DNA from: Clostridia bacterium
Lineage (GTDB): Bacteria; Bacillota; Clostridia; Lachnospirales; Lachnospiraceae
Length of the DNA: 64,000 bases
Assembly: GCA_910574835.1 (NCBI GenBank)
Contig: CAJTDE010000018.1
Span: 1 to 64,000 of the forward strand
Direction: 5' to 3'
Shown here: positions 35,684 through 63,668 of the stretch, one piece after another
How positions within the stretch are numbered: the first letter of the stretch is position 1
How the letters are laid out: each line of letters starts with the position of its first letter
Program-made: the position numbers and the translations under genes
The notes under the pieces: generated by a model
What the model was told of the DNA's origin: nothing
The model's input: the letters and a program-made list of their open reading frames with translations, nothing else
Database searches by the model: none

Positions 35684-35890
35684 ATGGCAGACTGTAATAT
35701 GCAATCCATGCAAAGGCCGAGACCCGGAAGCTGCTCCGCAGATCAGCTCCTGGGGATGTCTCTGGCGATTGCCTATGTGCCCTGGCAGCACTGGAATGAG
35801 ACTTATCAGTTGGATAAAGCAATGCAAGTCGGAACGATCTTCCCGGAGCTTGATAAACCATTTCTTGGAAAGCGAGGTGCATGCAGATGA
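35684..35890 (+). CDS. cotJA: Spore coat-associated protein CotJA
   Basis: 68 aa. The family core is LLGMSLAIAYVPWQHWNETY followed by LDKAMQVGTIFPELDKPFLG. CotJA is a small inner-coat protein made in the mother cell during sporulation. AGGAGCCTCTT precedes the ATG. The stop overlaps the cotJB start region, and cotJB and the cotJC fragment follow, giving the standard cotJ operon order. Confidence 0.93.
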   Translation: MADCNMQSMQRPRPGSCSADQLLGMSLAIAYVPWQHWNETYQLDKAMQVGTIFPELDKPFLGKRGACR

Positions 35891-36549
35891 TGAATAACGG
35901 ATCTTTTGGACAGTTCCAGAGAGGAAACTCCTGTAACCAGGGAAGAGGCCAGAGCTCCTGCGTTCAGCCGCAGCCCCGGGGAACCGTACCTTGCAATCAG
36001 CCGCAGTCCCGGCCTATGCCCTCCTGCAATCAGCCGCAGCCTCGGCCGTCGGCGCCCTGCAATCAGCCAAAGCCCTGTCCGCCGCCGACATGTGTTCAGC
36101 CGCAGCCCCGGCCAACGCCGCCTTGCAACCAGCCAAAACCTTGTCCGCCGCCGTCTTGCGTTCAGCCGCAGCCCCGGCCAACGCCGCCTTGCAACCAGCC
36201 GAAGCCTTGTCCGCCGCCGACCTGTGTTCAGCCGCAGCCCCGGCCTGTGCCGCCCTGTAATCAGCCTCAGGGCCGCCCTGTGGGTCCCTCCTGCCCCTGC
36301 AGTGAGATGAATCGGGAACAGCTGCTTCATTGGATTTCCCTCGCAAAATTTGCCTGTGTTGACAGTGCTCTTTATCTGGATACGCATCCCTGTGATATGG
36401 AAGCGATTGAATATTTTAAGGAGCATGTGGAGTTCTACAATGAGGCATTGGCGGAATATTCAAAAACCTATGGCCCGCTCACCCTTGCGCACGCCCATCA
36501 CTGTGATACCTATTGGGATTGGGTAAATCAGCCGTGGCCGTGGCAATAG
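35887..36549 (+). CDS. cotJB: CotJB with a long Cys/Pro/Gln-rich N-terminal repeat domain
   Basis: About 220 aa. The last ~85 residues are normal CotJB (NREQLLHWISLAKFACVDSA, DTHPCDMEAIEYFKEH, HHCDTYWDWVNQPWPW). In front lies a ~125-residue extension built of tandem units such as CVQPQPRPTPPCNQPKPCPP, three near-identical and several degenerate, encoded by ~66-base DNA repeats. Usual CotJB is ~85-90 aa. The cysteines could be used for disulfide cross-linking in the coat (inference). The ATG at 35887 has GAGGTG at good spacing; an ATG at 35881 is also possible. Confidence 0.9.
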   Translation: MMNNGSFGQFQRGNSCNQGRGQSSCVQPQPRGTVPCNQPQSRPMPSCNQPQPRPSAPCNQPKPCPPPTCVQPQPRPTPPCNQPKPCPPPSCVQPQPRPTPPCNQPKPCPPPTCVQPQPRPVPPCNQPQGRPVGPSCPCSEMNREQLLHWISLAKFACVDSALYLDTHPCDMEAIEYFKEHVEFYNEALAEYSKTYGPLTLAHAHHCDTYWDWVNQPWPWQ

Positions 36550-36570: not shown

Positions 36571-36684
36571 ATGTTTAATTATGAAAAACGTTTGGAATAT
36601 CCGATTCATATTAAGGAGACAAATCCGAAGCTGGCTAAGGCTATCATAACACAATACGGAGGACCACACTGTAAAAAGTTATAG
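36571..36684 (+). pseudogene. cotJC: cotJC 5' fragment interrupted by the prophage
   Basis: ATG at 36571 after GAAAGGAGGGAAATGATC. The encoded peptide MFNYEKRLEYPIHIKETNP, then KLAKAIITQYGGP, matches the start of the manganese-catalase-like coat protein CotJC, whose family continues after QYGGP for ~150 more residues. Here the frame instead reads HCKKL and stops at 36684. The break coincides with the end of the recombinase gene, so the rest of cotJC should lie at the far prophage junction beyond base 64000. Confidence 0.88.
36655..36675. other. Left prophage junction (attL) inside cotJC
   Basis: The cotJC sequence is recognisable up to CAATACGGAGGACC, and prophage sequence follows. The exchange core probably lies within GGAGGACCA, only a few bases from the stop codon of the serine recombinase at 36679. 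The exact core needs the right junction. Confidence 0.75.
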
Positions 36685-38151
36685 TGCGCGGAAAACACAA
36701 TAAATCTCAAGCTTTTTTGTTTTTTTGTCAAATACAATTCGGTCGCAGATGGAACGGATAGAATGAGCCTTGTTTTCTTTAGAGGTATCAGAACACAAAA
36801 TATCTGTAACACTTTGGATTCTAAGTAGCATTTCTTCGAGGTGCCCATCCATATCGGGCTTCTGTATTGCGGCTTTGAGTGTCCGGAGCTGTTCCGTAAG
36901 CCGGTTACGTTCCGACTGAATCAAAGCTTTATTCTGGCGGTATTCATCCAGTGTATCAATGCCATTTTGATAAGCGGCTTTGATACGTTTTTCTTTTTCG
37001 TATAATCTTTCAATAGATTCTGTTAAAATGGCCTGTTCATCCTGAGTATGCTCGGGGAGGACAAGTTCTTCCTTATATTTTACAGAGCCGGACCGGATGT
37101 TTTCGCATAAGGTATTAATAAGGGCCTGCTCCAGAAGCCTTGCGGAAATATAATGGGAGACATTACATTTACCCTTTCCGTAGGAAATGCACTGGAAACC
37201 TGCAGTAGCCGGACTATAGGTAAGTGAGGAGCCGCAGGCGGAGCACTTCACCAGGTTTCCCAGCCAGTGGCCATAAGAATCTGCAGATTTTGCTTTGGGG
37301 CGCCGGTATTGCCGGGCAATTTCGGCCTGTACCTGATCAAAGACGTCCTCCGGAATGATAACGGGGATATGCTGCCCTTGTGTCAGTATCATATCAGGGC
37401 TGGATGCATCCGGACCCCGCAGGGCATTGCGTCCCACATTCCAGCGGGCATAGCCTTTGTACACAGGATTCTGAAGCACATACTTGACGGTTCGGTTTTC
37501 CCAGAGACCGCCGCGATGGGTGCGTATACCCTTATTGTTGAGATAGGCTGCAAGCTTGGAAAAGGCGAAATGTTCCTCCATGAACTTCCGGAAAATAATT
37601 TTGATAATCTCCGCTTCCTCCGGGATGATTTCAAGACCTTCCGGGATGTTTCGATAGCCGAAGGGAGCAGTTGCCTGATAACGGCCTCGATGAGCATTTT
37701 CTATCATGCCTCGCTTTACTTCTCCGGAAAGGCGGATAGAATAGTATTCGTCCATCCATTCTATGATCCGCTCAATCAGACTGCCAAAGGGGCCGTCGAC
37801 CAGTGGCTCAGATACACTTAGGACCTCAACGCCGGCCTTTTTAAGCAAAGACTTATAGACAATGGATTCCTCCTGATTCCGGGCAAACCGGGAGAACTTC
37901 CAGACCAGAAGCACATCCACGGGATGTTCCTTGGATTTGGCGCGGGCGATCATTTCTTGGAAGGCTGGGCGCTTCTCGGCTTTCCGGCCAGAGATGCCGG
38001 AGTCTATGTAGATTTGTTCCAGGACAATCTTGTTATTCCTTGCATAGTCCCGGAGCAGGCGTTCCTGAGAATCCGGAGAAAGCTCCTCCTGGTCATGGGT
38101 GCTTACCCGGATGTAGGCGAATCCGGAACGAAGTTCTTTAGATGGTGTCAT
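36679..38151 (-). CDS. Large serine recombinase (phage integrase)
   Basis: 490 aa. The resolvase domain (1-150) has the nucleophile serine in FAYIRVSTHDQEELSPDSQ, with IDSGISGRKAEKRP and LLVWKFSRFARNQEES. The recombinase domain follows, then a zinc ribbon (VKCSACGSSL...CISYGKGKCNVSH) and a coiled-coil segment (~385-450). Its stop lies within ~15 bases of attL, the usual position for large serine integrases. The same enzyme class performs developmental excision from sigK and spsM in Bacillus. AAGGAGATGATACT precedes the ATG; CATACACAT just upstream (38178-38170) resembles a sporulation -10 box but has no matching -35. Confidence 0.95.
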   Translation of the reverse strand: MTPSKELRSGFAYIRVSTHDQEELSPDSQERLLRDYARNNKIVLEQIYIDSGISGRKAEKRPAFQEMIARAKSKEHPVDVLLVWKFSRFARNQEESIVYKSLLKKAGVEVLSVSEPLVDGPFGSLIERIIEWMDEYYSIRLSGEVKRGMIENAHRGRYQATAPFGYRNIPEGLEIIPEEAEIIKIIFRKFMEEHFAFSKLAAYLNNKGIRTHRGGLWENRTVKYVLQNPVYKGYARWNVGRNALRGPDASSPDMILTQGQHIPVIIPEDVFDQVQAEIARQYRRPKAKSADSYGHWLGNLVKCSACGSSLTYSPATAGFQCISYGKGKCNVSHYISARLLEQALINTLCENIRSGSVKYKEELVLPEHTQDEQAILTESIERLYEKEKRIKAAYQNGIDTLDEYRQNKALIQSERNRLTEQLRTLKAAIQKPDMDGHLEEMLLRIQSVTDILCSDTSKENKAHSIRSICDRIVFDKKTKKLEIYCVFRAL

Positions 38152-40976: not shown

Positions 40977-41717
40977 TTACAGTTTCCCAATCACTTTCCC
41001 CATGCAAACAATATTGTCATATTCTGCGATTTGTATATTGTCCGCATCCGGATTTCTGGATATCAGTTCTTTTTCCCCATACTCTTTTATGTAAGTGTTG
41101 TTATTAATGATAAAGATTCCTATATCTCCATGAAAGAGTTCAGCTTTCTGGGAGACCAGGACAATGTCTCCATCCGCATAATCGGGAAACATGGAGTCTC
41201 CGCTTACCTTGATAGCAAAATCAACAGCCCGGTTCTCCGGTGTATTGGGAATGGCAATCTGCTCTGCAACCTCGTTTCCAAGGATGAATACACCAGAGCC
41301 TGCGGATGCGCTGCGGAAGTACTCTACCATGCGGTTATTCTCATTGGAAGAGGATTGGAATTCTATGATGGCAGCAGGAGCCTTGGCTTGCTTTAGCTGC
41401 TCTGCTCGTTTGACCTCCCAATCTAAGAATGTGTTTATATGTTCTTGACCAGTTGGATCAAGCTTTTGATAATTTTTTATAAGCCATTCAAATTCTTCTG
41501 GGATGACAGTTTCTTCGCTCCAACCAACAAGCTCTCTTGAGGTAGTTCCCAGAGCTTTGGCAAATAATTCGATTTTAGACTGTTGTAGATCTATTTGCCC
41601 TTTTTCGATTTTAGTAATGGAAGAACGATCGGTATATCCAGTTAATTTAGCCAAAGCATCTTGGGATAGCCCTTTTTCTTCTCGCAGTCGTTTTATGTTT
41701 TTATATAAGTCTAACAT
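40977..41717 (-). CDS. Phage repressor, XRE HTH plus S24 (LexA/CI) peptidase
   Basis: 246 aa from the ATG at 41717 after AAAGGTGGTGTTGT. HTH: IKRLREEKGLSQDALAKLTG, then YTDRSSITKIEKGQ. The C-terminal S24 domain has the cleavage region SASAGSGVF, the serine in VSGDSMFPDYADGDIV and the lysine in NNTYIKEYG. It maintains lysogeny and self-cleaves on the SOS signal. It diverges from the Cro-like gene across the operator at ~41740-41817. Fragments of its 3' end are repeated at 39931 and 40488. Confidence 0.93.
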   Translation of the reverse strand: MLDLYKNIKRLREEKGLSQDALAKLTGYTDRSSITKIEKGQIDLQQSKIELFAKALGTTSRELVGWSEETVIPEEFEWLIKNYQKLDPTGQEHINTFLDWEVKRAEQLKQAKAPAAIIEFQSSSNENNRMVEYFRSASAGSGVFILGNEVAEQIAIPNTPENRAVDFAIKVSGDSMFPDYADGDIVLVSQKAELFHGDIGIFIINNNTYIKEYGEKELISRNPDADNIQIAEYDNIVCMGKVIGKL

Positions 41718-41744
41718 ACAACACCACCTTTCAGTAATCACATA

Positions 41745-44650: not shown

Positions 44651-44672
44651 TCAAAAGGCCCTTCGGGGCTAA

Positions 44673-44747
44673 GGAGCCATAGCTTAACAGGCAGAGCAAT
44701 CAGCCCTCCAATACTGATAAATTCGGGTTCGAGTCCCGATGGCTCCT
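44673..44747 (+). tRNA. tRNA-like gene with a 10-base anticodon loop
   Basis: The acceptor stem GGAGCCA / TGGCTCC is perfect. The D arm is GCTT / GAGC with AACAGGCA loop. The T arm TCGGG-TTCGAGT-CCCGA is canonical. The anticodon stem ATCAG / CTGAT encloses CCCTCCAATA, ten bases instead of seven, so the anticodon is ambiguous (TCC or CCA read in different registers). CCA is not encoded. It could be a decayed tRNA or a specialised phage tRNA-like RNA. Confidence 0.75.
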
Positions 44748-44815
44748 ATCAGAAGCGCATCTGAAAGCAAGTTGTACAATCAGTAATTCATAGAATGACC
44801 TAAAGGAGGGATTCG

Positions 44816-44968
44816 ATGGAAAAAATTACAGGACGTTTGTTCATCCGAGAGGAGAATGAGACAGAATACAGGCCCTGGAGCGAATTGACAGAAGAAGAGG
44901 CAAAGAAGATTAGCGACTGCCTGAACCGACAGGCAGCTCATGCCGCTAATTTTAAGGAGATAGCATAG
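44816..44968 (+). CDS. Small phage protein, unknown
   Basis: 50 aa: MEKITGRLFIREENETEYRP, then WSELTEEEAKKISDCLNRQA. AAAGGAGGGATTCG is a strong ribosome site. Widespread-looking small early protein of Clostridial phages; no function known. Confidence 0.7.
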   Translation: MEKITGRLFIREENETEYRPWSELTEEEAKKISDCLNRQAAHAANFKEIA

Positions 44969-52053: not shown

Positions 52054-52317
52054 GTGAACCGGATACAGTTTATTATATTGTCAAGCCTGGTGTCGGAAAG
52101 CGCCAATAATAATGTAAATGCAATGTCAATCAAAGAGATTATTGAGAATTTGCGTTCCCTGGAATATACCTATAATTCTTTTTATAAGCATACAAAGGCG
52201 CTATTGGCAGCAGGATATATAGCGGCAGGGCTTCCGGTGGGTAATTCCAAGACTTATTACGTAACCCAGCAAGGAAAAGAAGCATTGGAGATTGTGAAGG
52301 GAGGAGACGGAGCATGA
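52054..52317 (+). CDS. Winged-helix protein, TubR-like
   Basis: 87 aa with GTG start after GGAAGGAAACGA: MNRIQFIILSSLVSESANNN, then MSIKEIIENLRSLEYTYNSF and ending KTYYVTQQGKEALEIVKGG, a PadR/ArsR-like winged helix. The stop overlaps the tubulin-like gene start (ATGA at 52314). TubR proteins are small winged-helix DNA binders encoded next to TubZ; the assignment here is from position and fold pattern. Confidence 0.68.
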   Translation: MNRIQFIILSSLVSESANNNVNAMSIKEIIENLRSLEYTYNSFYKHTKALLAAGYIAAGLPVGNSKTYYVTQQGKEALEIVKGGDGA

Positions 52318-53351
52318 AAAAGGAAATTGGATTTGTAGCAATAGGACAGGCAGGAGGAAACATTGGAAAGCTGTTTGAAAAGATGGGCTATACGGTTCTG
52401 TACATAAACACATCGGAGGAGGATTTGAAAACTCTTCCTGATGCAGCCCATAAGTACCATCTGGAGGGCGGTGATGGATGTAATAAAGACCGGACAAAGG
52501 CAAAGAAGCTTCTGGCCAGGAATCTTGAAAAAGTTATGAAGGAGATATCTGGGAAAGTACCTCAAAAGCTGGTATTTACTATTTTTTCTGCTGGAGGCGG
52601 GACAGGCTCCGGGATTGGCCCGGCTCTTACGGCAGTGCTGCAGCAGGAATTGGATAAAGTGACGGGAGCAATCACTATACTTCCAAGCGAAAATGAATCT
52701 GTAAAAGCTCATGTCAATGCCTGGGACTGCGTGAGGGAGCTGGCAGATATTGAAGAAATAGGAGCCTCATTTTTTATAGATAATAATTCCGATAGGGGAA
52801 AAATGAAGCTTAATGATATTTTTGTAAAACTTCTGGATGATTTTATCAGTATTCCGGAGAAAAAGACCAGTGCGCTCGGAAATATTGACAGGGCGGAGAT
52901 TAAGGAGGTGCTGAGCACCAAAGGAGCGGCAGTTATCAGCCGTACATCCAAGCAGGATACGACTACGGCCAGAGTAATTGAGCATCTGCGCAAAGGGATA
53001 TTTGCCGAAATGGATGAGGTGAAGGCGGTGAAATATATAGCTATATTGGCAGCAGGATCCCAGACAACAATTAATCTGCAAGCTTTGCAGGCCGAGTTTG
53101 GGACTGCATACGATATCTTTCAGGGATTCGAGGCGGAACAGACCATATGCTGCCTTAGCGGGCTGAGATTTCCGTTTTCACGAATGGAAAAGATTAAGAA
53201 AAAAGCTATGGAGAATCAGGAGGACATTGTGAATAGTTTCAATGCGGTCAATGCGAATCCTATGAGCGAGGGATTAGATTTGTTTGCAAAGGTAAAGAAG
53301 CCGGAAAAGAAGAAAGGAAGTTCCAGGGACTTATTACAAAAGTTTTTGTAG
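52314..53351 (+). CDS. FtsZ/TubZ-like tubulin GTPase
   Basis: 345 aa. T1 loop FVAIGQAGGNIGKLFEK, tubulin signature FSAGGGTGSGIGPAL (T4) and T7 synergy loop NIDRAEIKEVLSTKG, with N-x-D-x-x-E in the catalytic position. The C-terminal tail is basic (KVKKPEKKKGSSRDLLQ), as expected for DNA/TubR contact. Phage tubulins either segregate plasmid-like prophages (TubZ) or position capsids (PhuZ). The coupled wHTH gene and upstream repeats favour a partition role. Confidence 0.85.
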   Translation: MKKEIGFVAIGQAGGNIGKLFEKMGYTVLYINTSEEDLKTLPDAAHKYHLEGGDGCNKDRTKAKKLLARNLEKVMKEISGKVPQKLVFTIFSAGGGTGSGIGPALTAVLQQELDKVTGAITILPSENESVKAHVNAWDCVRELADIEEIGASFFIDNNSDRGKMKLNDIFVKLLDDFISIPEKKTSALGNIDRAEIKEVLSTKGAAVISRTSKQDTTTARVIEHLRKGIFAEMDEVKAVKYIAILAAGSQTTINLQALQAEFGTAYDIFQGFEAEQTICCLSGLRFPFSRMEKIKKKAMENQEDIVNSFNAVNANPMSEGLDLFAKVKKPEKKKGSSRDLLQKFL

Positions 53352-54860: not shown

Positions 54861-55049
54861 ATGCCAATGACTTCCCAGGAGATGATAAAACTCCTAAAGA
54901 AAAACGGTTTTGAAAGTATCAGTCAGAATGGTTCTCATGTGAAGCTAAGAAATTCAGAAGCCGGAAAGACGGTAATCGTTCCTTATCACTCCAAAGACTT
55001 GAAAAAAGGCTTGGAGCAAACAATACTTAAACAGGCGGGACTGAAATAA
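54861..55049 (+). CDS. hicA: HicA mRNA-interferase toxin
   Basis: 62 aa dsRBD-like fold: MTSQEMIKLLKKNGFESISQ, then NGSHVKLRNSEAGKTVIVPY with the catalytic histidine in GSHVKL. Cleaves mRNA unless bound by HicB. Toxin-first order, hicB 30 bases downstream. Confidence 0.94.
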   Translation: MPMTSQEMIKLLKKNGFESISQNGSHVKLRNSEAGKTVIVPYHSKDLKKGLEQTILKQAGLK

Positions 55050-55079
55050 GTCCTGCCGGTAAAATGGAGGTACTGGAGT

Positions 55080-55496
55080 ATGAATAAATTATTTTATCCG
55101 GCGTTATTCCATGAAGCGGAAGAAGGGGGCTTCTGGGTCTCTTTTCCGGATATTCCCGAATGTATGACCCAGGGAGAAGATATGCAGCAAGCATATGAAA
55201 TGGCTGTAGAAGCATTGGGGCTTTCGTTATCAGGCATGGAGGAAGAGAAGATCGAGTTCCCTATGGCATCACGTCCAAAAGATATAAAAAGTGAAGCGGA
55301 CAGCTTCTTGGTTGTCATTGAGTTTGATATGGCAGAGTACAGGAGGAAACATTGCTCCAGAGCCGTAAAGAAAACTTTGAGTATACCGGAATGGTTGAAT
55401 GATGTTGCGATAAAGCAGAATATAAACTTTTCTCAAGTGCTCCAGGAGGCATTGATGGAAAAGTTAGGAACCAGTCAAGTTGAAAAGGTATTTTAA
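55080..55496 (+). CDS. hicB: HicB antitoxin
   Basis: 138 aa. Degenerate RNase-H-like N-terminal domain (LFHEAEEGGFWVSFPDIPEC, then MTQGEDMQQAYEMAVEALG) and a C-terminal ribbon-helix-helix (VKKTLSIPEWLNDVAIKQ, INFSQVLQEALMEKL) for operator binding. Neutralises HicA and autoregulates from the TACGT sites. Confidence 0.94.
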   Translation: MNKLFYPALFHEAEEGGFWVSFPDIPECMTQGEDMQQAYEMAVEALGLSLSGMEEEKIEFPMASRPKDIKSEADSFLVVIEFDMAEYRRKHCSRAVKKTLSIPEWLNDVAIKQNINFSQVLQEALMEKLGTSQVEKVF

Positions 55497-57248: not shown

Positions 57249-57815
57249 TTGAATACGGTTGAGCCGATTCGGGACATGGATCTCGTGCTGGATGTGGCCG
57301 ACTATCTAAAAGTGAAGAATGAACGTGACTATCTCCTGTTTATGTTTGGGATTTACACGGGACTTCGGATATCTGATATTTTAAAATTCCGCGTTCGGGA
57401 TGTGAAAGATAAAGACGCCATATATATCCGGGAGAAAAAGACGGGCAAGGAAAAACGCTTCCCAGTGAATGAGGAGCTGAAGCCAATCATTGCAAATTAC
57501 ATACGAGGGAAAAGGGATTACGAATTTTTGTTTAAATCTCCCAATTTTCCGAATAAGGCAATCAGCAGGCAGCAAGCCTATAATATTCTTTCGGAAGCGG
57601 GAAAGACGTTTGGAATCAGCGCTATAGGAACGCACACACTGCGTAAGACGTTCGGCTATCATATGTATCAGCAGACACATGACGCTGTAACAATTAAAGA
57701 GATACTGAATCATTCGGATATATCTGTTACGCTTCGGTACATAGGGATTAATCAGGACAATAAAGACAAGGCTATCAAGGGGCTGACTTTTGCTAAAAAA
57801 AGAAGCCAAAGATAA
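57249..57815 (+). CDS. Short tyrosine recombinase (catalytic domain only)
   Basis: 188 aa. Catalytic residues are complete: R in YTGLRISDIL, K in REKKTGKEKRF, H-x-x-R in THTLRKTFGYH, H in LNHSDISV and the nucleophile in TLRYIGI. The N-terminal core-binding domain is missing, so the protein is about half of a normal integrase. TTG at 57249 after AAGGAGGCGGTTATG is the likely start. Such mini-integrases commonly sit before the terminase genes in Clostridial phages; the role is not established. Confidence 0.85.
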   Translation: MNTVEPIRDMDLVLDVADYLKVKNERDYLLFMFGIYTGLRISDILKFRVRDVKDKDAIYIREKKTGKEKRFPVNEELKPIIANYIRGKRDYEFLFKSPNFPNKAISRQQAYNILSEAGKTFGISAIGTHTLRKTFGYHMYQQTHDAVTIKEILNHSDISVTLRYIGINQDNKDKAIKGLTFAKKRSQR

Positions 57816-58169: not shown

Positions 58170-58742
58170 ATGACAAAAACAGATATGGATTCCGCAAAAG
58201 TCACAAATATAGATAGTATAACTGTTTCAGCCAGTGTGCTGGGGGAGCTTTTTGGAGTGAAAGACCGGAGAATCCGGCAGATGGCAGAGGAAGGAATTGT
58301 TATCAGAGCTGCAAAAGGCAGATATAAGCTGGTGGATTCTGTGAAAAATTATCTTTTGACGTTGAAGCTGGCAGCAGACGGTGTTGAGGTAGATCTGGTT
58401 GATGGCGACATCAATTATGATGAAGAAAAGGGATTGCATGAAAGAGTAAAACGTCATATTTCAGAATTAAAATTACAGGTTATGAGAGCCGAGGTGCATA
58501 AGGCGGAGGATGTGGAGAGGGTTATGACAGATATGTTGGTCGCGTTCAAAACCAGGGTGATGAATATTCCTTCTAAAATGGCGCCGGTGTTGGAAAATCG
58601 GGATGTAGTATTCATTAAAGACCGTCTGTCTGGAGAAGTACTCGAAGTGCTGAATGAGCTGAAGGAGTATGATCCGAAAGCATTTTACAGTGAAGAATAT
58701 GTGGAGGAAAATGAAGGCGAATATGAACGGGATCGAGTTTAA
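58170..58742 (+). CDS. Terminase small subunit (Nu1-like)
   Basis: 190 aa. An N-terminal winged helix (VLGELFGVKDRRIRQMAEEG) like lambda Nu1 binds the packaging site. The acidic C-terminal half (YVEENEGEYERD) contacts the large subunit. GGGAGGTGAGGAC precedes the ATG; the gene overlaps the large subunit start. Confidence 0.85.
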   Translation: MTKTDMDSAKVTNIDSITVSASVLGELFGVKDRRIRQMAEEGIVIRAAKGRYKLVDSVKNYLLTLKLAADGVEVDLVDGDINYDEEKGLHERVKRHISELKLQVMRAEVHKAEDVERVMTDMLVAFKTRVMNIPSKMAPVLENRDVVFIKDRLSGEVLEVLNELKEYDPKAFYSEEYVEENEGEYERDRV

Positions 58743-60576
58743 AACGCTGAAACTGTTTCAGAAGCTTGCGAAAGCAGTAAGCCCGCCTCCTGTTTTGACA
58801 GTCAGCCAGTGGGCGGATTGCTACCGGCGGTTGTCTGCGGAAAGCGCGGCGGAGCCAGGACAATGGAATACGGACAGAGCGCCCTATCAACGGGAAATTA
58901 TGGATTCTGTAAATGATCCTCTGGTTGAAGAGATTGTTATTATGAGCTCCGCCCAGGTAGGGAAGACAGAACTGCTTCTAAATATCATTGGTTATTATAT
59001 TGATTACGATCCGGCGCCCATACTTGTGGTCCAGCCAACACTTAAGCCTATGGCAGAGGACTTTTCAAAGGACAGGCTGGCTCCGATGATTCGCGACACA
59101 CCGGCATTGGCCAGGAAGGTCCGTGATGTAAAAGCAAAGAGTTCCGGGAATACGATTTTACATAAAGCCTTTCCGGGCGGTCATGTAACAATAGCCGGAG
59201 CAAATTCTCCTTCCAGCCTTGCTTCGCGCCCTGTCCGGATTGTTCTGCTGGATGAGACGGACCGCTATCCTCCCAGTGCCGGAACCGAAGGAAATCCCAT
59301 CAAGCTGGCTGAAAAAAGGACAACCGCTTTCTGGAACAGAAAGAAAATTAAAGTTTCCACGCCGACGATTAAGGGGATAAGCCAGATTGAAAAGGAATAT
59401 CAGTCCGGGACTATGGAGGAATGGTGTGTTCCATGCCCATGCTGCGGTAAATATCAGCCTTATGAGTGGAATAGAGTAAACTTTGCGGATGTAACAATGG
59501 AGTGCAAATACTGCGGCGAACATATCTCGGAAACAGACTGGAAACAGGGACAGGGGAAGTTTATCGCAGCTCATCCGGAACGGCATCGGAAACGGTCCTT
59601 CCACTTGAATGAGCTAACCTCTCCCTGGACACACTGGCCGGAGATCATACGGGAATGGAAAGAAGCCCATAAGGAGCTGAAGGAGAACGGCGATCCCAAT
59701 AAGATGAAAATATTCATCAACACAGTGCTCGGAGAAACCTGGGAAGAACGGGGCAAGAGTGCGGATGATGATTCCCTCTTATCACGCCGGGAATGTTACA
59801 GGGCAGAGCTTCCGGAAGGTGTTCTTGTTCTTACCGCATCTGTTGATGTGCAGGATGATCGGTTTGAAATAGAAGTTGTCGGATGGGGGCGCGGCTATGA
59901 ATCATGGGGGATTCAATACGAGAAGCTTTACGGAGATCTGGATAAAGAAGAAACCTGGGACAGACTGGGAATATGGCTTGAGCGCGAATTTTATTTTGCA
60001 ACGGGAGCATCTCTTTTGATTGCCCATACCTGTATTGATACCGGAGGACACAAAACAACGGAATGTTACAAATTTTTGAAGAGAATGGAGAAAAAGGGGA
60101 AACGGATTAGCGGAATCAAAGGTTTTGGAAGGGAAGGTATAGGGATTCCTTTAATCCATAAGCTGTCCGCGAACAATGAATACAAGGTGAAGGTGTTCAT
60201 TCTGGGCGTTGACAGCGGGAAAGAAATTGTTGTCTCCAGGCTTTCCATAACGGAGGAGGGGCCGGGATACTGTCATTTTCCAATCAATGAGGATCGCGGA
60301 TATGATGAACTTGTCATAAAAGGCTTAAACAGCGAGCAGAGGGTTACGGAGATTAAGAATGGCAGGGCAGTAGTCAAATGGAAGAAAAAAAGCGGCATAC
60401 GGAATGAGCCTTTGGATCTCCGTGTTTACAATACGGCGGCTGTCGAAATATTACGGCCAAACTTTGACATCCTGGAAAAGAAGGTAAAGGCCGGGATTAA
60501 TTATATGAGAAAAACGCCGGGGAAGGCAGAGAAGAAAAGAAGAACCGGAACCGTGAGCCGCGGAGTAGAATTGTAG
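58723..60576 (+). CDS. Terminase large subunit (GpA family)
   Basis: About 617 aa from the ATG at 58723 (58711 is also in frame). PVLTVSQWADCYRRLSAESA opens as in lambda GpA. The ATPase Walker A-like region is IVIMSSAQVGKTELLLNIIG and the B-like VRIVLLDETDRYP. A zinc-ribbon (CPCCGKYQPYEWNRV, CKYCGEH) and nuclease domain with ASVDVQDDRFEIEVVGWG follow. It cuts and packages concatemeric phage DNA. Confidence 0.95.
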   Translation: MNGIEFKTLKLFQKLAKAVSPPPVLTVSQWADCYRRLSAESAAEPGQWNTDRAPYQREIMDSVNDPLVEEIVIMSSAQVGKTELLLNIIGYYIDYDPAPILVVQPTLKPMAEDFSKDRLAPMIRDTPALARKVRDVKAKSSGNTILHKAFPGGHVTIAGANSPSSLASRPVRIVLLDETDRYPPSAGTEGNPIKLAEKRTTAFWNRKKIKVSTPTIKGISQIEKEYQSGTMEEWCVPCPCCGKYQPYEWNRVNFADVTMECKYCGEHISETDWKQGQGKFIAAHPERHRKRSFHLNELTSPWTHWPEIIREWKEAHKELKENGDPNKMKIFINTVLGETWEERGKSADDDSLLSRRECYRAELPEGVLVLTASVDVQDDRFEIEVVGWGRGYESWGIQYEKLYGDLDKEETWDRLGIWLEREFYFATGASLLIAHTCIDTGGHKTTECYKFLKRMEKKGKRISGIKGFGREGIGIPLIHKLSANNEYKVKVFILGVDSGKEIVVSRLSITEEGPGYCHFPINEDRGYDELVIKGLNSEQRVTEIKNGRAVVKWKKKSGIRNEPLDLRVYNTAAVEILRPNFDILEKKVKAGINYMRKTPGKAEKKRRTGTVSRGVEL

Positions 60577-60844: not shown

Positions 60845-62413
60845 TTGAATATTTTTGATAAGGCTGTTGAAATCATAAATCCTTCAAAGGCATTGGAGAG
60901 AAACATGGCTCGAATGAAATTGGAGATGTTCCATCGGTTTCAGAATTCAGGATATGATGAAAGCGGAGCTGCCCGGAATAAGAATTCCATGAGAGGCTGG
61001 AGGGCGTCCAGCAAATCCCCGCAGGAAGATATTGACCGGAATCTTCCCCTTCTCCGCCAACGTTCCCGCAGCCTTTATATGTCAGCGCCGCTGGCTGTTT
61101 CAGCTATTAAGACAAACCGGACCAATATCGTGGGTGAAGGGCTGCGGTTAAAAAGTACCATTGATGCGGGATATCTGAGAATGACCCCGGAAGCGGCAGC
61201 AGAATGGCAGCGCAATACGGAACGGGAATTTGACCTGTGGGCGGAATCAAAGTTTTGTGATTCCACTTGTGTAAATAATTTTTATGAGATTCAGCAGGTG
61301 GCTTGCCTGGCCTGGCTGATGAATGGAGATGCATGTGTGCTTTTGGAATATGAAAAACCAGGATCGACATTCCCCTATGGCCTGCGTATTCATTTGATAG
61401 AATCGGATCGGGTATCAACACCGTACACCAGCGGCTCAACGGTGAATCTGTATGCCGTGAATAAAGAAACGGGCAATCACATCTATAACGGAGTGGAGGT
61501 GACAGACAATGGCCGCGTGGTTGCTTATCATATCTGCTCCACCTATCCCAACAGTCAGCTTCGGGCAGTGAAGAAGTGGGAGCGGATAAAAGCATTTGGG
61601 GAGCGTACCGGAGTGCCGAATGTATTGATGATTTTTGAAACGGAGCGGGCAGAGCAATATAGAGGCGTTCCCTATCTGGCTCCGGTGATTGAATCCTTAA
61701 AGCAGCTTACCAGATACAGTGAGGCCGAAATGATGGCGGCTGTGATTAATGGTTTTTTTACAGTATTTATTACACCGGAAAGGGGTTCATCCGGATTTGA
61801 ATTTACAGGGGTTGTGGATGATGAAGAGAGTATTTCGGATGATAATGTCAATTATGAGGTAGGACCCGGAATTGTCAATGTGTTGAACCCCGGAGATAAA
61901 ATCGAGATTGCAGACGCAAAAAGGCCATCCAGTAACTTTGATGCGTTTGTGACATCCCTTGCAAAATATGTCGGCGCTGCATTGGAGATTCCGGTGGAAT
62001 TACTGATAAAAAGCTTTATCTCCAGTTATTCGGCTTCACGGGCAGCGTTATTGGAGGCATGGAAGGCGTTCCGCATGAAACGGAAATGGCTTGCGTCAGA
62101 TTTCTGTCAGCCGGTCTATGAGATTTTTCTGACAGAGGCAATAGCTCGCGGCAGAATCAAAGCTCCGGGCTTCTTTTTGGATCCTGCGGTCAAAAAAGCA
62201 TATTGCAAAGCACAGTGGAACGGACCGGCTCCAGGTATGATTGATCCGGTGAAAGAAGCGGATGCGGCAGAAAAAAGAATTGCAATCGGTGTATCTACAC
62301 GTCAGCGCGAAGCAATTGAAATGACTGGTACGGACTTTGATGCAAATGTTGCGCAACTTGCGAGAGAAAACCAGTTAATGCAGGAAAACGGCCTGATTGC
62401 AGAGAAAGAATAA
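60845..62413 (+). CDS. Phage portal protein, lambda family
   Basis: 522 aa, TTG start after GGGAGGCGATAAAAA. GWRASSKSPQEDIDRNLPLL, LAVSAIKTNRTNIVGEGLR and LIKSFISSYSASRAALLEAW (the portal crown/wing signature) identify the PF05136 family. Forms the dodecameric DNA entry channel. Confidence 0.94.
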   Translation: MNIFDKAVEIINPSKALERNMARMKLEMFHRFQNSGYDESGAARNKNSMRGWRASSKSPQEDIDRNLPLLRQRSRSLYMSAPLAVSAIKTNRTNIVGEGLRLKSTIDAGYLRMTPEAAAEWQRNTEREFDLWAESKFCDSTCVNNFYEIQQVACLAWLMNGDACVLLEYEKPGSTFPYGLRIHLIESDRVSTPYTSGSTVNLYAVNKETGNHIYNGVEVTDNGRVVAYHICSTYPNSQLRAVKKWERIKAFGERTGVPNVLMIFETERAEQYRGVPYLAPVIESLKQLTRYSEAEMMAAVINGFFTVFITPERGSSGFEFTGVVDDEESISDDNVNYEVGPGIVNVLNPGDKIEIADAKRPSSNFDAFVTSLAKYVGAALEIPVELLIKSFISSYSASRAALLEAWKAFRMKRKWLASDFCQPVYEIFLTEAIARGRIKAPGFFLDPAVKKAYCKAQWNGPAPGMIDPVKEADAAEKRIAIGVSTRQREAIEMTGTDFDANVAQLARENQLMQENGLIAEKE

Positions 62414-62435: not shown

Positions 62436-63668
62436 ATGGAATGGAAGGGAAACAAGGGAATAAGGATTTTGAATCAGACAGCACAGGTGACGGGGGATCA
62501 GAAAGTCAATAAATTCTGGAATTTTATCAACAAGGATGATGAGACGGCAGAATTGCAGCTTTTTGGAGAAATAGTCAGCGAGGAAAGCTGGTGGAATGAT
62601 GACTGCGTAACATACCGTAATTTCATTGATGAGTTAAACGGATTAGGTGAGAAAAAGAGTATCAATGTTATAATCCAGTCTGTCGGAGGAGATGTGTTTG
62701 CTGCAAATGCAATATACAATGCTTTGATATTAAACAAGGCGGAGATTACAGGAACCGTTATTGGGATATGTGCCAGTGCCGCGACCATTATCCTTATGGC
62801 ATGTAAAAACAGAAGGATTGCAAAAAATGCGATGCTTATGGTTCATAATCCGTCGGTAACTTTGTGGGGGTCTTATACGTCGGAAGATGTCTTAAAGCTT
62901 GGAAATATGATAGAAAAAACAAAGAAAAGCATAGCAGCCGCATATATGGAGCGGATGGACAAAACAGAGGATGAGATCAATCAGATTATGGATCAGGAAT
63001 CGTGGTATGTGGGACAGGAGGCTGTTGATGCCGGATTTTGTGATGAGATAATTGAGACCGGATTTGAAGAAAGCATATTTTTGAATTGCTTTCAATTAAA
63101 CGGTGTTCCATATAGTTTCAAAAGTTATCTGGAAACAGTGGTTCCGTCTGATGTTCGAAAAAAGGTTCTGGCGCTTTCGGCAGTAAAACCGAAAGAAAGC
63201 GGGGCTTTTTTTAATAAAAATAAAGAGAAAGGAAGTAAAAGCATGGAGGAGAATGAAACCGTAAACATGACACCGGAGATTGCGGATGCCTCACAGTTAA
63301 AAAGCGCTTATCCCGAGCTTGTCAGCCAGATTGTTACAGAGGCAGTACGGTCTGAACGGGCGCGTCTGAAAAGCATTGATGAAATTGCAGCAGGGATTCC
63401 GGAGGATGTACTGACAAAGGCCAAATATGATGAACCGGTTTCCGCAGAGGCTCTGGCGCTGGCACAGATGAAGGCCAATAACAGAATCGGCCAGCAGACT
63501 TTAAGCAGTATGGTCAGTGATATGACAGATTCCGGCGTAAAAGATGTCGGAAGTATGCCAAATGCCGGAACCAGCGAAGCAGAAGAAAAGTTGATTCAGA
63601 GCCAGGCAAAAGTAGGAGGCCTTGCAGCAGCTCTGGGAAGGGATAAGAGAAGGGAGAAAAAGGAATGA
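62436..63668 (+). CDS. ClpP-like prohead protease with fused scaffold
   Basis: 410 aa. The S14/S49-like protease domain (1-~220) has VIIQSVGGDVFAANAIYNAL, nucleophile GICASAATIILMA and histidine NAMLMVHNPSVTLWGS. A flexible C-terminal half (from EENETVNMTPEIADASQL) acts as scaffold. Matures the head shell during assembly. The stop overlaps the next start as ATGA at 63665. Confidence 0.93.
   Translation: MEWKGNKGIRILNQTAQVTGDQKVNKFWNFINKDDETAELQLFGEIVSEESWWNDDCVTYRNFIDELNGLGEKKSINVIIQSVGGDVFAANAIYNALILNKAEITGTVIGICASAATIILMACKNRRIAKNAMLMVHNPSVTLWGSYTSEDVLKLGNMIEKTKKSIAAAYMERMDKTEDEINQIMDQESWYVGQEAVDAGFCDEIIETGFEESIFLNCFQLNGVPYSFKSYLETVVPSDVRKKVLALSAVKPKESGAFFNKNKEKGSKSMEENETVNMTPEIADASQLKSAYPELVSQIVTEAVRSERARLKSIDEIAAGIPEDVLTKAKYDEPVSAEALALAQMKANNRIGQQTLSSMVSDMTDSGVKDVGSMPNAGTSEAEEKLIQSQAKVGGLAAALGRDKRREKKE

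Follow-up and report, generated by a model that had tools for sequence, protein, structure and literature searches.

Several sporulation genes are known to be split by mobile DNA; those named in the available excerpts of the literature are sigK, spsM, spoVFB, spoVR, gerE, yabG, and kamA. In Bacillus subtilis, the prophage SP-beta lies within spsM, which becomes whole again when the prophage is excised in the mother cell (excerpts of PMC4191935, PMC5595907, and PMC6957869). The C. difficile skin element splits sigK, and its factor is under the control of sigma-E and SpoIIID (excerpt of PMC5025042). Elements of the same kind include yin in yabG, gin in gerE, and vfbin in spoVFB (excerpts of PMC10747680, PMC5595907, and PMC6957869). 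The attR site of C. difficile phi027 adjoins a CotJC homologue, which in the available portions of PMC11222575 and PMC12122855 lies downstream of attR and is not described as split. The retrieved portions of the open-access literature in PubMed Central yielded no description of an element inside cotJC or sleC.

The locus described here resembles SP-beta in spsM in that a full-size temperate prophage with a large serine recombinase occupies a spore-surface gene, together with a small factor that is here a candidate. It differs in its target, cotJC, in the 6.7 kb that separate the candidate ORF from the recombinase, and in being known from sequence alone. With C. difficile skin it shares a serine recombinase and a separate small factor, which is under mother-cell control there and a candidate for it here; however, sigK is intact in our genome, and the -10-like motif is CATAnnnT, which some relatives show at a sigma-K-like spacing. 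Like yin, gin, and vfbin, the element sits inside a sporulation gene and encodes its own serine recombinase, but those elements occupy other genes, and the excerpts contained no case of three sites or two elements per gene. Intervening elements in sporulation genes are a known kind, found here in another target gene and on an unusual scale.

The analyzed window of 64,000 nucleotides corresponds to C18:1-64000 of a 5.0-Mb draft genome (G000) that comprises 133 contigs and is 96% complete with 4.6% contamination; contig C18 is 88,019 bp long. Table 1 lists the features. The original prediction described a cotJA-cotJB-cotJC operon whose last gene follows its family to QYGGP and then enters prophage sequence, with the stop of a recombinase about 15 bases away. 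This description was borne out. The cotJC frame starts at 36571, reads MFNYEKRLEYPIHIKETNPKLAKAIITQYGGP to ITQYGGP, and leaves its family at codon 32; the recombinase ORF ends 13 bases past the core. The PF05067 match of this short piece is slightly below the curated cut-off. A long N-terminal extension rich in Pro, Gln, and Cys, with repeats of the CNQPQPRP type (35881-36300, + strand), lies ahead of the CotJB domain.

Table 1 Coordinates of features in the window.
Feature	Position	Strand	Evidence or remark
cotJA	35684..35890	+	PF11007 CotJA, E 9.5e-19
cotJB	35881..36549	+	PF12652 CotJB at residues 146-222, E 1.5e-26
cotJC 5' part, core included	36571..36665	+	PF05067 residues 1-32, E 9e-6
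attL core ACAATACGGAGGACC, 15 bp	36651..36665	+	Longest string common to both junctions
attP inverted repeat, right arm TGTAAAAAGTTATA, 14 bp	36670..36683	+	Overlaps recombinase stop
Large serine recombinase, 490 aa	36679..38151	-	Resolvase, Recombinase, and zinc-ribbon Pfam domains; PHROG 95 integrase, E 5.5e-107
CI-like repressor	40977..41735	-	PHROG 4 transcriptional repressor, E 4.3e-37
Motif GTACAA-N9-CATAGAATG, with CATAnnnT as -10-like part	44774..44797	+	Upstream of 50-aa ORF
50-aa ORF, candidate recombination directionality factor	44816..44968	+	Family in recombinase-relative loci
Terminase large subunit	58669..60576	+	PHROG 15
Portal protein	60845..62413	+	PHROG 21
Head maturation protease	62436..63668	+	PHROG 94

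The missing remainder of cotJC, which had been expected beyond 64 kb, is present on the + strand of the same contig at C18:87086-87587 and opens with an identical copy of the core (C18:87086-87100). The element between the halves measures 50,435 bp. When the flanks are joined in silico, they yield an uninterrupted CotJC of 193 aa without a stop; in this reconstruction, precise removal of the element restores the frame. The left arm of the attP inverted repeat lies at the far end of the element and extends into the core. Reconstructed attP contains a 14-bp perfect inverted repeat flanking the core, and 18 of 25 positions are paired versus at best 11 of 25 in attB. An empty site is found in G306, a genome of the same genus, in which uninterrupted cotJC matches at 98.9% over 630 bp with no gaps. 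A PF05067 profile search of our assembly matched only the two halves and found no second copy. Of the two sequence findings that would have spoken against the original prediction, a missing remainder and an intact cotJC elsewhere, neither was made. The genome carries an uninterrupted sigK that scores above the curated cut-off, with no insertion in sigK itself, and an intact spoIVA; with both genes present, the host appears able to form spores. The element is a precisely inserted prophage with both cotJC halves intact. The exact split, the recombinase at the edge, the intact remainder, and the search that found no second cotJC support the proposal of a developmentally excised element as a candidate.

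The prophage carries a temperate set of integrase, repressor, terminase, portal, and head protease genes, and a lysis-type enzyme of glycosyl hydrolase 25 is encoded close to its right end. Among isolated phages, the best-ranked match to the recombinase reached 39.6%. Several other features were seen along the way. A phage tRNA gene with a four-base anticodon, tcca, and called tRNA-??? (44672-44748, + strand) lies directly upstream of the 50-aa ORF. The 345-aa ORF at 52314-53351 (+) has a tubulin/FtsZ-like GGGTGSG signature by eye and may encode a phage tubulin, and a HicA/HicB-like toxin-antitoxin pair was recognized by eye at 54861-55496 (+). Two further integrase-like ORFs lie inside the prophage: one at 57249-57815 (+) matches PF00589, and the other (C18:80003-81025, - strand), near tail-like genes, looks by eye like a tyrosine recombinase, perhaps a local invertase.

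We surveyed 299 genomes of the family, drawn evenly from 298 genera, with the joined CotJC protein as the query; 182 matched. A second search covered 65 genomes (nearly all with weak or odd best matches) and 43 with several matches. Splits were called by a fixed rule on match ranges, and a junction was counted when both of its sides were seen, in some cases on different contigs. In at least 65 of the 182 cotJC-bearing genomes, the gene is interrupted at a minimum of one of three points, a lower bound because 73 further genomes (besides our own), with one match each, lay outside the second search. Site A (about residues 27-33) is split in 31 genomes, site B (about residues 61-69) in 30, and site C (about residues 132-138) in 12; two junctions occur in 8 genomes, and 12 additional genomes show one side of a junction only. 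The 65 include G166, whose cotJC copy is distant (38-42% identity), and 14 for which a full-length copy is additionally listed (hand count). Within our genus, splits occur in 7 of 16 genomes and involve all three sites; given this polymorphism, our own insertion may be recent. Three cotJC pieces lie on one contig in G253 and G164, and G253 has a separate recombinase in each of its two gaps. The arrangement is a recurrent, convergent pattern across the family. That the same gene is split in the same few places across many relatives suggests that sporulation triggers the cutting.

Further analysis of the elements revealed that each insertion point pairs with its own type of recombinase, three in all. 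In the set read, 30 gaps (our own included) lie on a single contig. A recombinase recognizable from ours is carried by 10/10 such elements at site A, ours included, with scores far above those at site B, where 15/15 carry one. At site C, none of the five elements matched our recombinase in the search; all five contain a 516-523-aa ORF of another type, and both of the two tested by Pfam are serine recombinases with DUF4368. In G243 the recombinase lies away from the very edge of the element. In many elements at sites B and C, none of the cores returned by our core-finding script was convincing, so we claim no exact crossover points there. Eight of the 30 gaps are shorter than 6 kb, and seven of these retain a recombinase ORF of 402-586 aa. 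The reduced element of G155 has a truncated recombinase of 273 aa, a search for whose C-terminal part found none; by eye, its cargo is a permease-like ORF. The small element of G030 carries a response regulator, and conjugation-like genes were recognized by eye in the elements of G222 and G282. An ORF in a cotJC-splitting element of G253 (L251, 3862-4374, + strand) has a Spo0A C-terminal domain (PF08769; scan of the first 100 aa). It is possible that the G253 and G030 ORFs are cargo that tunes sporulation.

The genes chosen by relatives of the recombinase were labeled by the neighbor within 1.3 kb. Among the best 80 of 177 relatives in GTDB species genomes, the neighbors were cotJC pieces in 44, a SleC-like gene in 25, and other genes in 11. 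Among 80 viral contigs, 10 adjoined cotJC, 15 a sleC-like gene, and 22 another gene, and in 33 the flank was too short. Some of these records are survey contigs (for example L083/G312 and L086/G310), so the two surveys overlap and are not independent. On a tree of 81 recombinase sequences, the labels cotJC, sleC-like, and other need 10 changes versus a mean of 31 after shuffling. Pieces of the second target match a peptidoglycan-binding domain and the terminal portion of SpoIID/LytB, in part weakly; the gene resembles that of the spore cortex-lytic protein SleC. The 25 sleC-like loci fall between L087 and L145 and include [Ruminococcus] torques ATCC 27756 (L099) and Blautia parvula (L139). Several carriers are cultured strains, among them Mobilitalea sibirica DSM 26468, Roseburia sp. 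1XD42-69, and Petroclostridium sp. X23. At L119 and L227, relatives of the recombinase adjoin a polysaccharide-deacetylase gene (domain found for L119), which presumably resembles spore PdaB.

The original prediction also called for a small excision factor among the unknown phage genes. The 50-aa ORF is now a concrete candidate for this part, and its activity as a factor is putative. A reduced site-A element of 3.9 kb (L083), whose recombinase is 81% identical to ours, retains a homologue of this ORF with 74% identity. An iterated profile search, in which strand and position were not used, found the family at 105 of 209 loci. These include 101 of the 160 recombinase-relative loci, where 99 of the ORFs lie upstream of the recombinase in divergent orientation, at a median distance of 3.4 kb. 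By label, the ORF was found at 26/54 cotJC, 24/40 sleC-like, 21/33 other, and 30/33 flankless loci; many of the flanks in this set are too short for calling an absence. A tRNA-like sequence precedes the homologous ORF in L086 too (by eye). We found no known relative of our ORF in PDB sequences, PHROG, or NCBIfam, and its Pfam match was below threshold; a 50-residue model with a pLDDT of 92 gave no significant fold match. A second family of 42-67 aa (CKNIFK...FTKxWIELIN), by eye unrelated to the first, occurs in 5/5 site-C elements (L050, L051, L052, L071, and L074), with CATAnnnT upstream in all five. Among site-B elements, a few have a small ORF with the pattern, and no single family emerged. 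Both families are candidate directionality factors.

The Bacillus sigma-K consensus is CATAnnnTA with an upstream AC. In 87 non-redundant upstream regions (of the 105 ORFs of the first family), CATAnnnT lies near the -10 position in 52, versus 41 of 848 other ORFs and 19 of 84 recombinase starts. The combination AC-N15-18-CATAnnnT occurs in 33/87, versus 18/848 controls and 2/84 recombinase starts (shuffles: mean 1.3, maximum 4). GKACAA-N9-CATA, a motif derived from the same related sequences in which it was then counted, occurs in 34/87 versus 0/848 and 0/84 (shuffles: mean 0.07, maximum 2). By target, the first combination precedes 9/25 cotJC-type versus 11/20 sleC-type ORFs, and the second 8/25 versus 14/20. 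GTACAA-N9-CATA stands ahead of 3/5 site-C ORFs, a partly circular count since these three had been preselected by the sigma-K-like pattern; G222 and G098, which entered the set through homology, have CATAnnnT only. A sigma-E-like pattern is not enriched in these upstream regions (9/87; shuffled mean 5.0, maximum 10).

Our own upstream region reads GTACAA-N9-CATAGAAT, with AG in place of the AC of the sigma-K -35. GKACAAN9CATANNNTR has three exact sites in the 5-Mb genome, one of them before the small ORF; neither of the other two is followed within 300 bp by an ORF start that has a ribosome site. Genome-wide, the bare sigma-K pattern shows no excess (113 versus 269 for the control). Because this looser pattern is unspecific, the assignment to sigma-K rests on the Bacillus consensus. 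GKACAA might be a SpoIIID-like site. We regard the motif as a candidate mother-cell-like -10 element that is enriched across the family and imperfect at our own site.

In Bacillus, expression of the cotJ operon takes place in the mother cell. We propose that the 50.4-kb prophage entered cotJC, which encodes a manganese-catalase-like spore-coat protein, at codons 27-32 through the action of its own large serine recombinase. During sporulation, the candidate directionality factor would be turned on in the mother cell from a mother-cell-type promoter and would switch the recombinase from integration to excision. Excision would mend cotJC in the mother cell, which dies, and the forespore would retain the prophage; induction of the prophage would also excise the element as an ordinary phage. 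On the sequence evidence, we consider it likely that the element is akin to skin and SP-beta, occupies a new target gene, and is cut out in the mother cell through the small ORF. Points against this reading are the AG in our own upstream region, the lower frequency of both promoter patterns before cotJC-type than before sleC-type ORFs, the detection of the small ORF at only 26 of 54 cotJC loci, the lack of specificity of the bare sigma-K pattern, the small protein's lack of resemblance to known factors, the truncated recombinase of G155, the full-length copies listed for 14 of the 65 split genomes, and a median dN/dS that is somewhat higher for split than for intact pairs.

We considered whether the split cotJC is dead, having decayed into a pseudogene around an element that can no longer leave. 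The truncated recombinase of G155 fits such decay, and in G265 a third cotJC-like copy, used here as a contrast, is broken by a transposase-like ORF (by eye), so broken copies do occur. Against this, both halves of our own gene are intact, and dN/dS versus four close relatives is 0.01-0.06 (dN 0.005 and dS 0.078 with G306; dN 0.006 and dS 0.685 with G302). Among 44 split copies that we read (four in part, and one of them the broken G265 copy), stops were present in three (residues 27, 29, and 60), each at a junction and none elsewhere; the stops flagged inside some genome-search matches proved, in fetched copies, to be matches running across a junction. Median dN/dS is 0.16 for split pairs (29/901), 0.10 for intact pairs (35/666), and 0.14 for mixed pairs (70/1591), values confined to pairs with usable dS, the number of which is limited by saturation. 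This pattern fits purifying selection, with the times before and after insertion inseparable. A dead gene is accordingly very improbable. A misassembly, in which a phage was wrongly joined in between two pieces of a contig, might be suspected in a contaminated draft of many contigs, and we judge it extremely improbable: the locus lies on one contig with an exact core, an attP inverted repeat, and an edge occupied by the recombinase, and many assemblies repeat this arrangement, 30 of them (ours included) on one contig.

The element could also be a plain temperate phage whose fixed attachment site lies in a dispensable gene, in which case cotJC would be off in lysogens and excision would follow phage induction only. 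Our prophage does retain terminase, portal, protease, and repressor genes, and only some genomes of the genus carry an insertion. According to the available part of PMC10083194, the target genes of many large serine recombinases are few. C. difficile mutants of two CotJC-family genes had lower catalase activity and no significant coat defect (excerpt of PMC11222575). An ordinary phage does not, however, predict reduced elements that retain the recombinase together with the small ORF, a mother-cell-like motif before that ORF, a second target that resembles a spore gene, or reading frames that stay intact when a gene is split twice. We therefore consider this explanation unlikely and prefer excision in the mother cell through the small ORF.

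With somewhat less assurance, we incline to a broader proposal, in which cotJC and the SleC-like gene serve as standing docking genes in Lachnospiraceae and their kin. Phages, conjugative-type elements, and minimal cassettes of 2-4 kb would have inserted time and again at three positions in cotJC, in some cases two in the same gene, leaving the chromosomal copy with two or three exons separated by DNA introns. Each type of element would have its own directionality factor, and these would have converged on one mother-cell-type promoter. Removal of the introns would be confined to the mother cell, and the spore line would always keep them.

As far as the available excerpts go, a handful of genes were previously known to be subject to programmed excision during sporulation. 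Here, of the sampled genera of one family that have cotJC, at least one third carry it split at fixed points by elements with different types of recombinase. Split cotJC and SleC-like genes would be called broken in annotation. Directionality factors are hard to find by homology and are useful tools, and the small ORFs provide a candidate family of them for a large clade of recombinases. The pattern also makes it testable whether mobile elements favor mother-cell genes for the reason that excision in that cell burdens neither the host nor the element.
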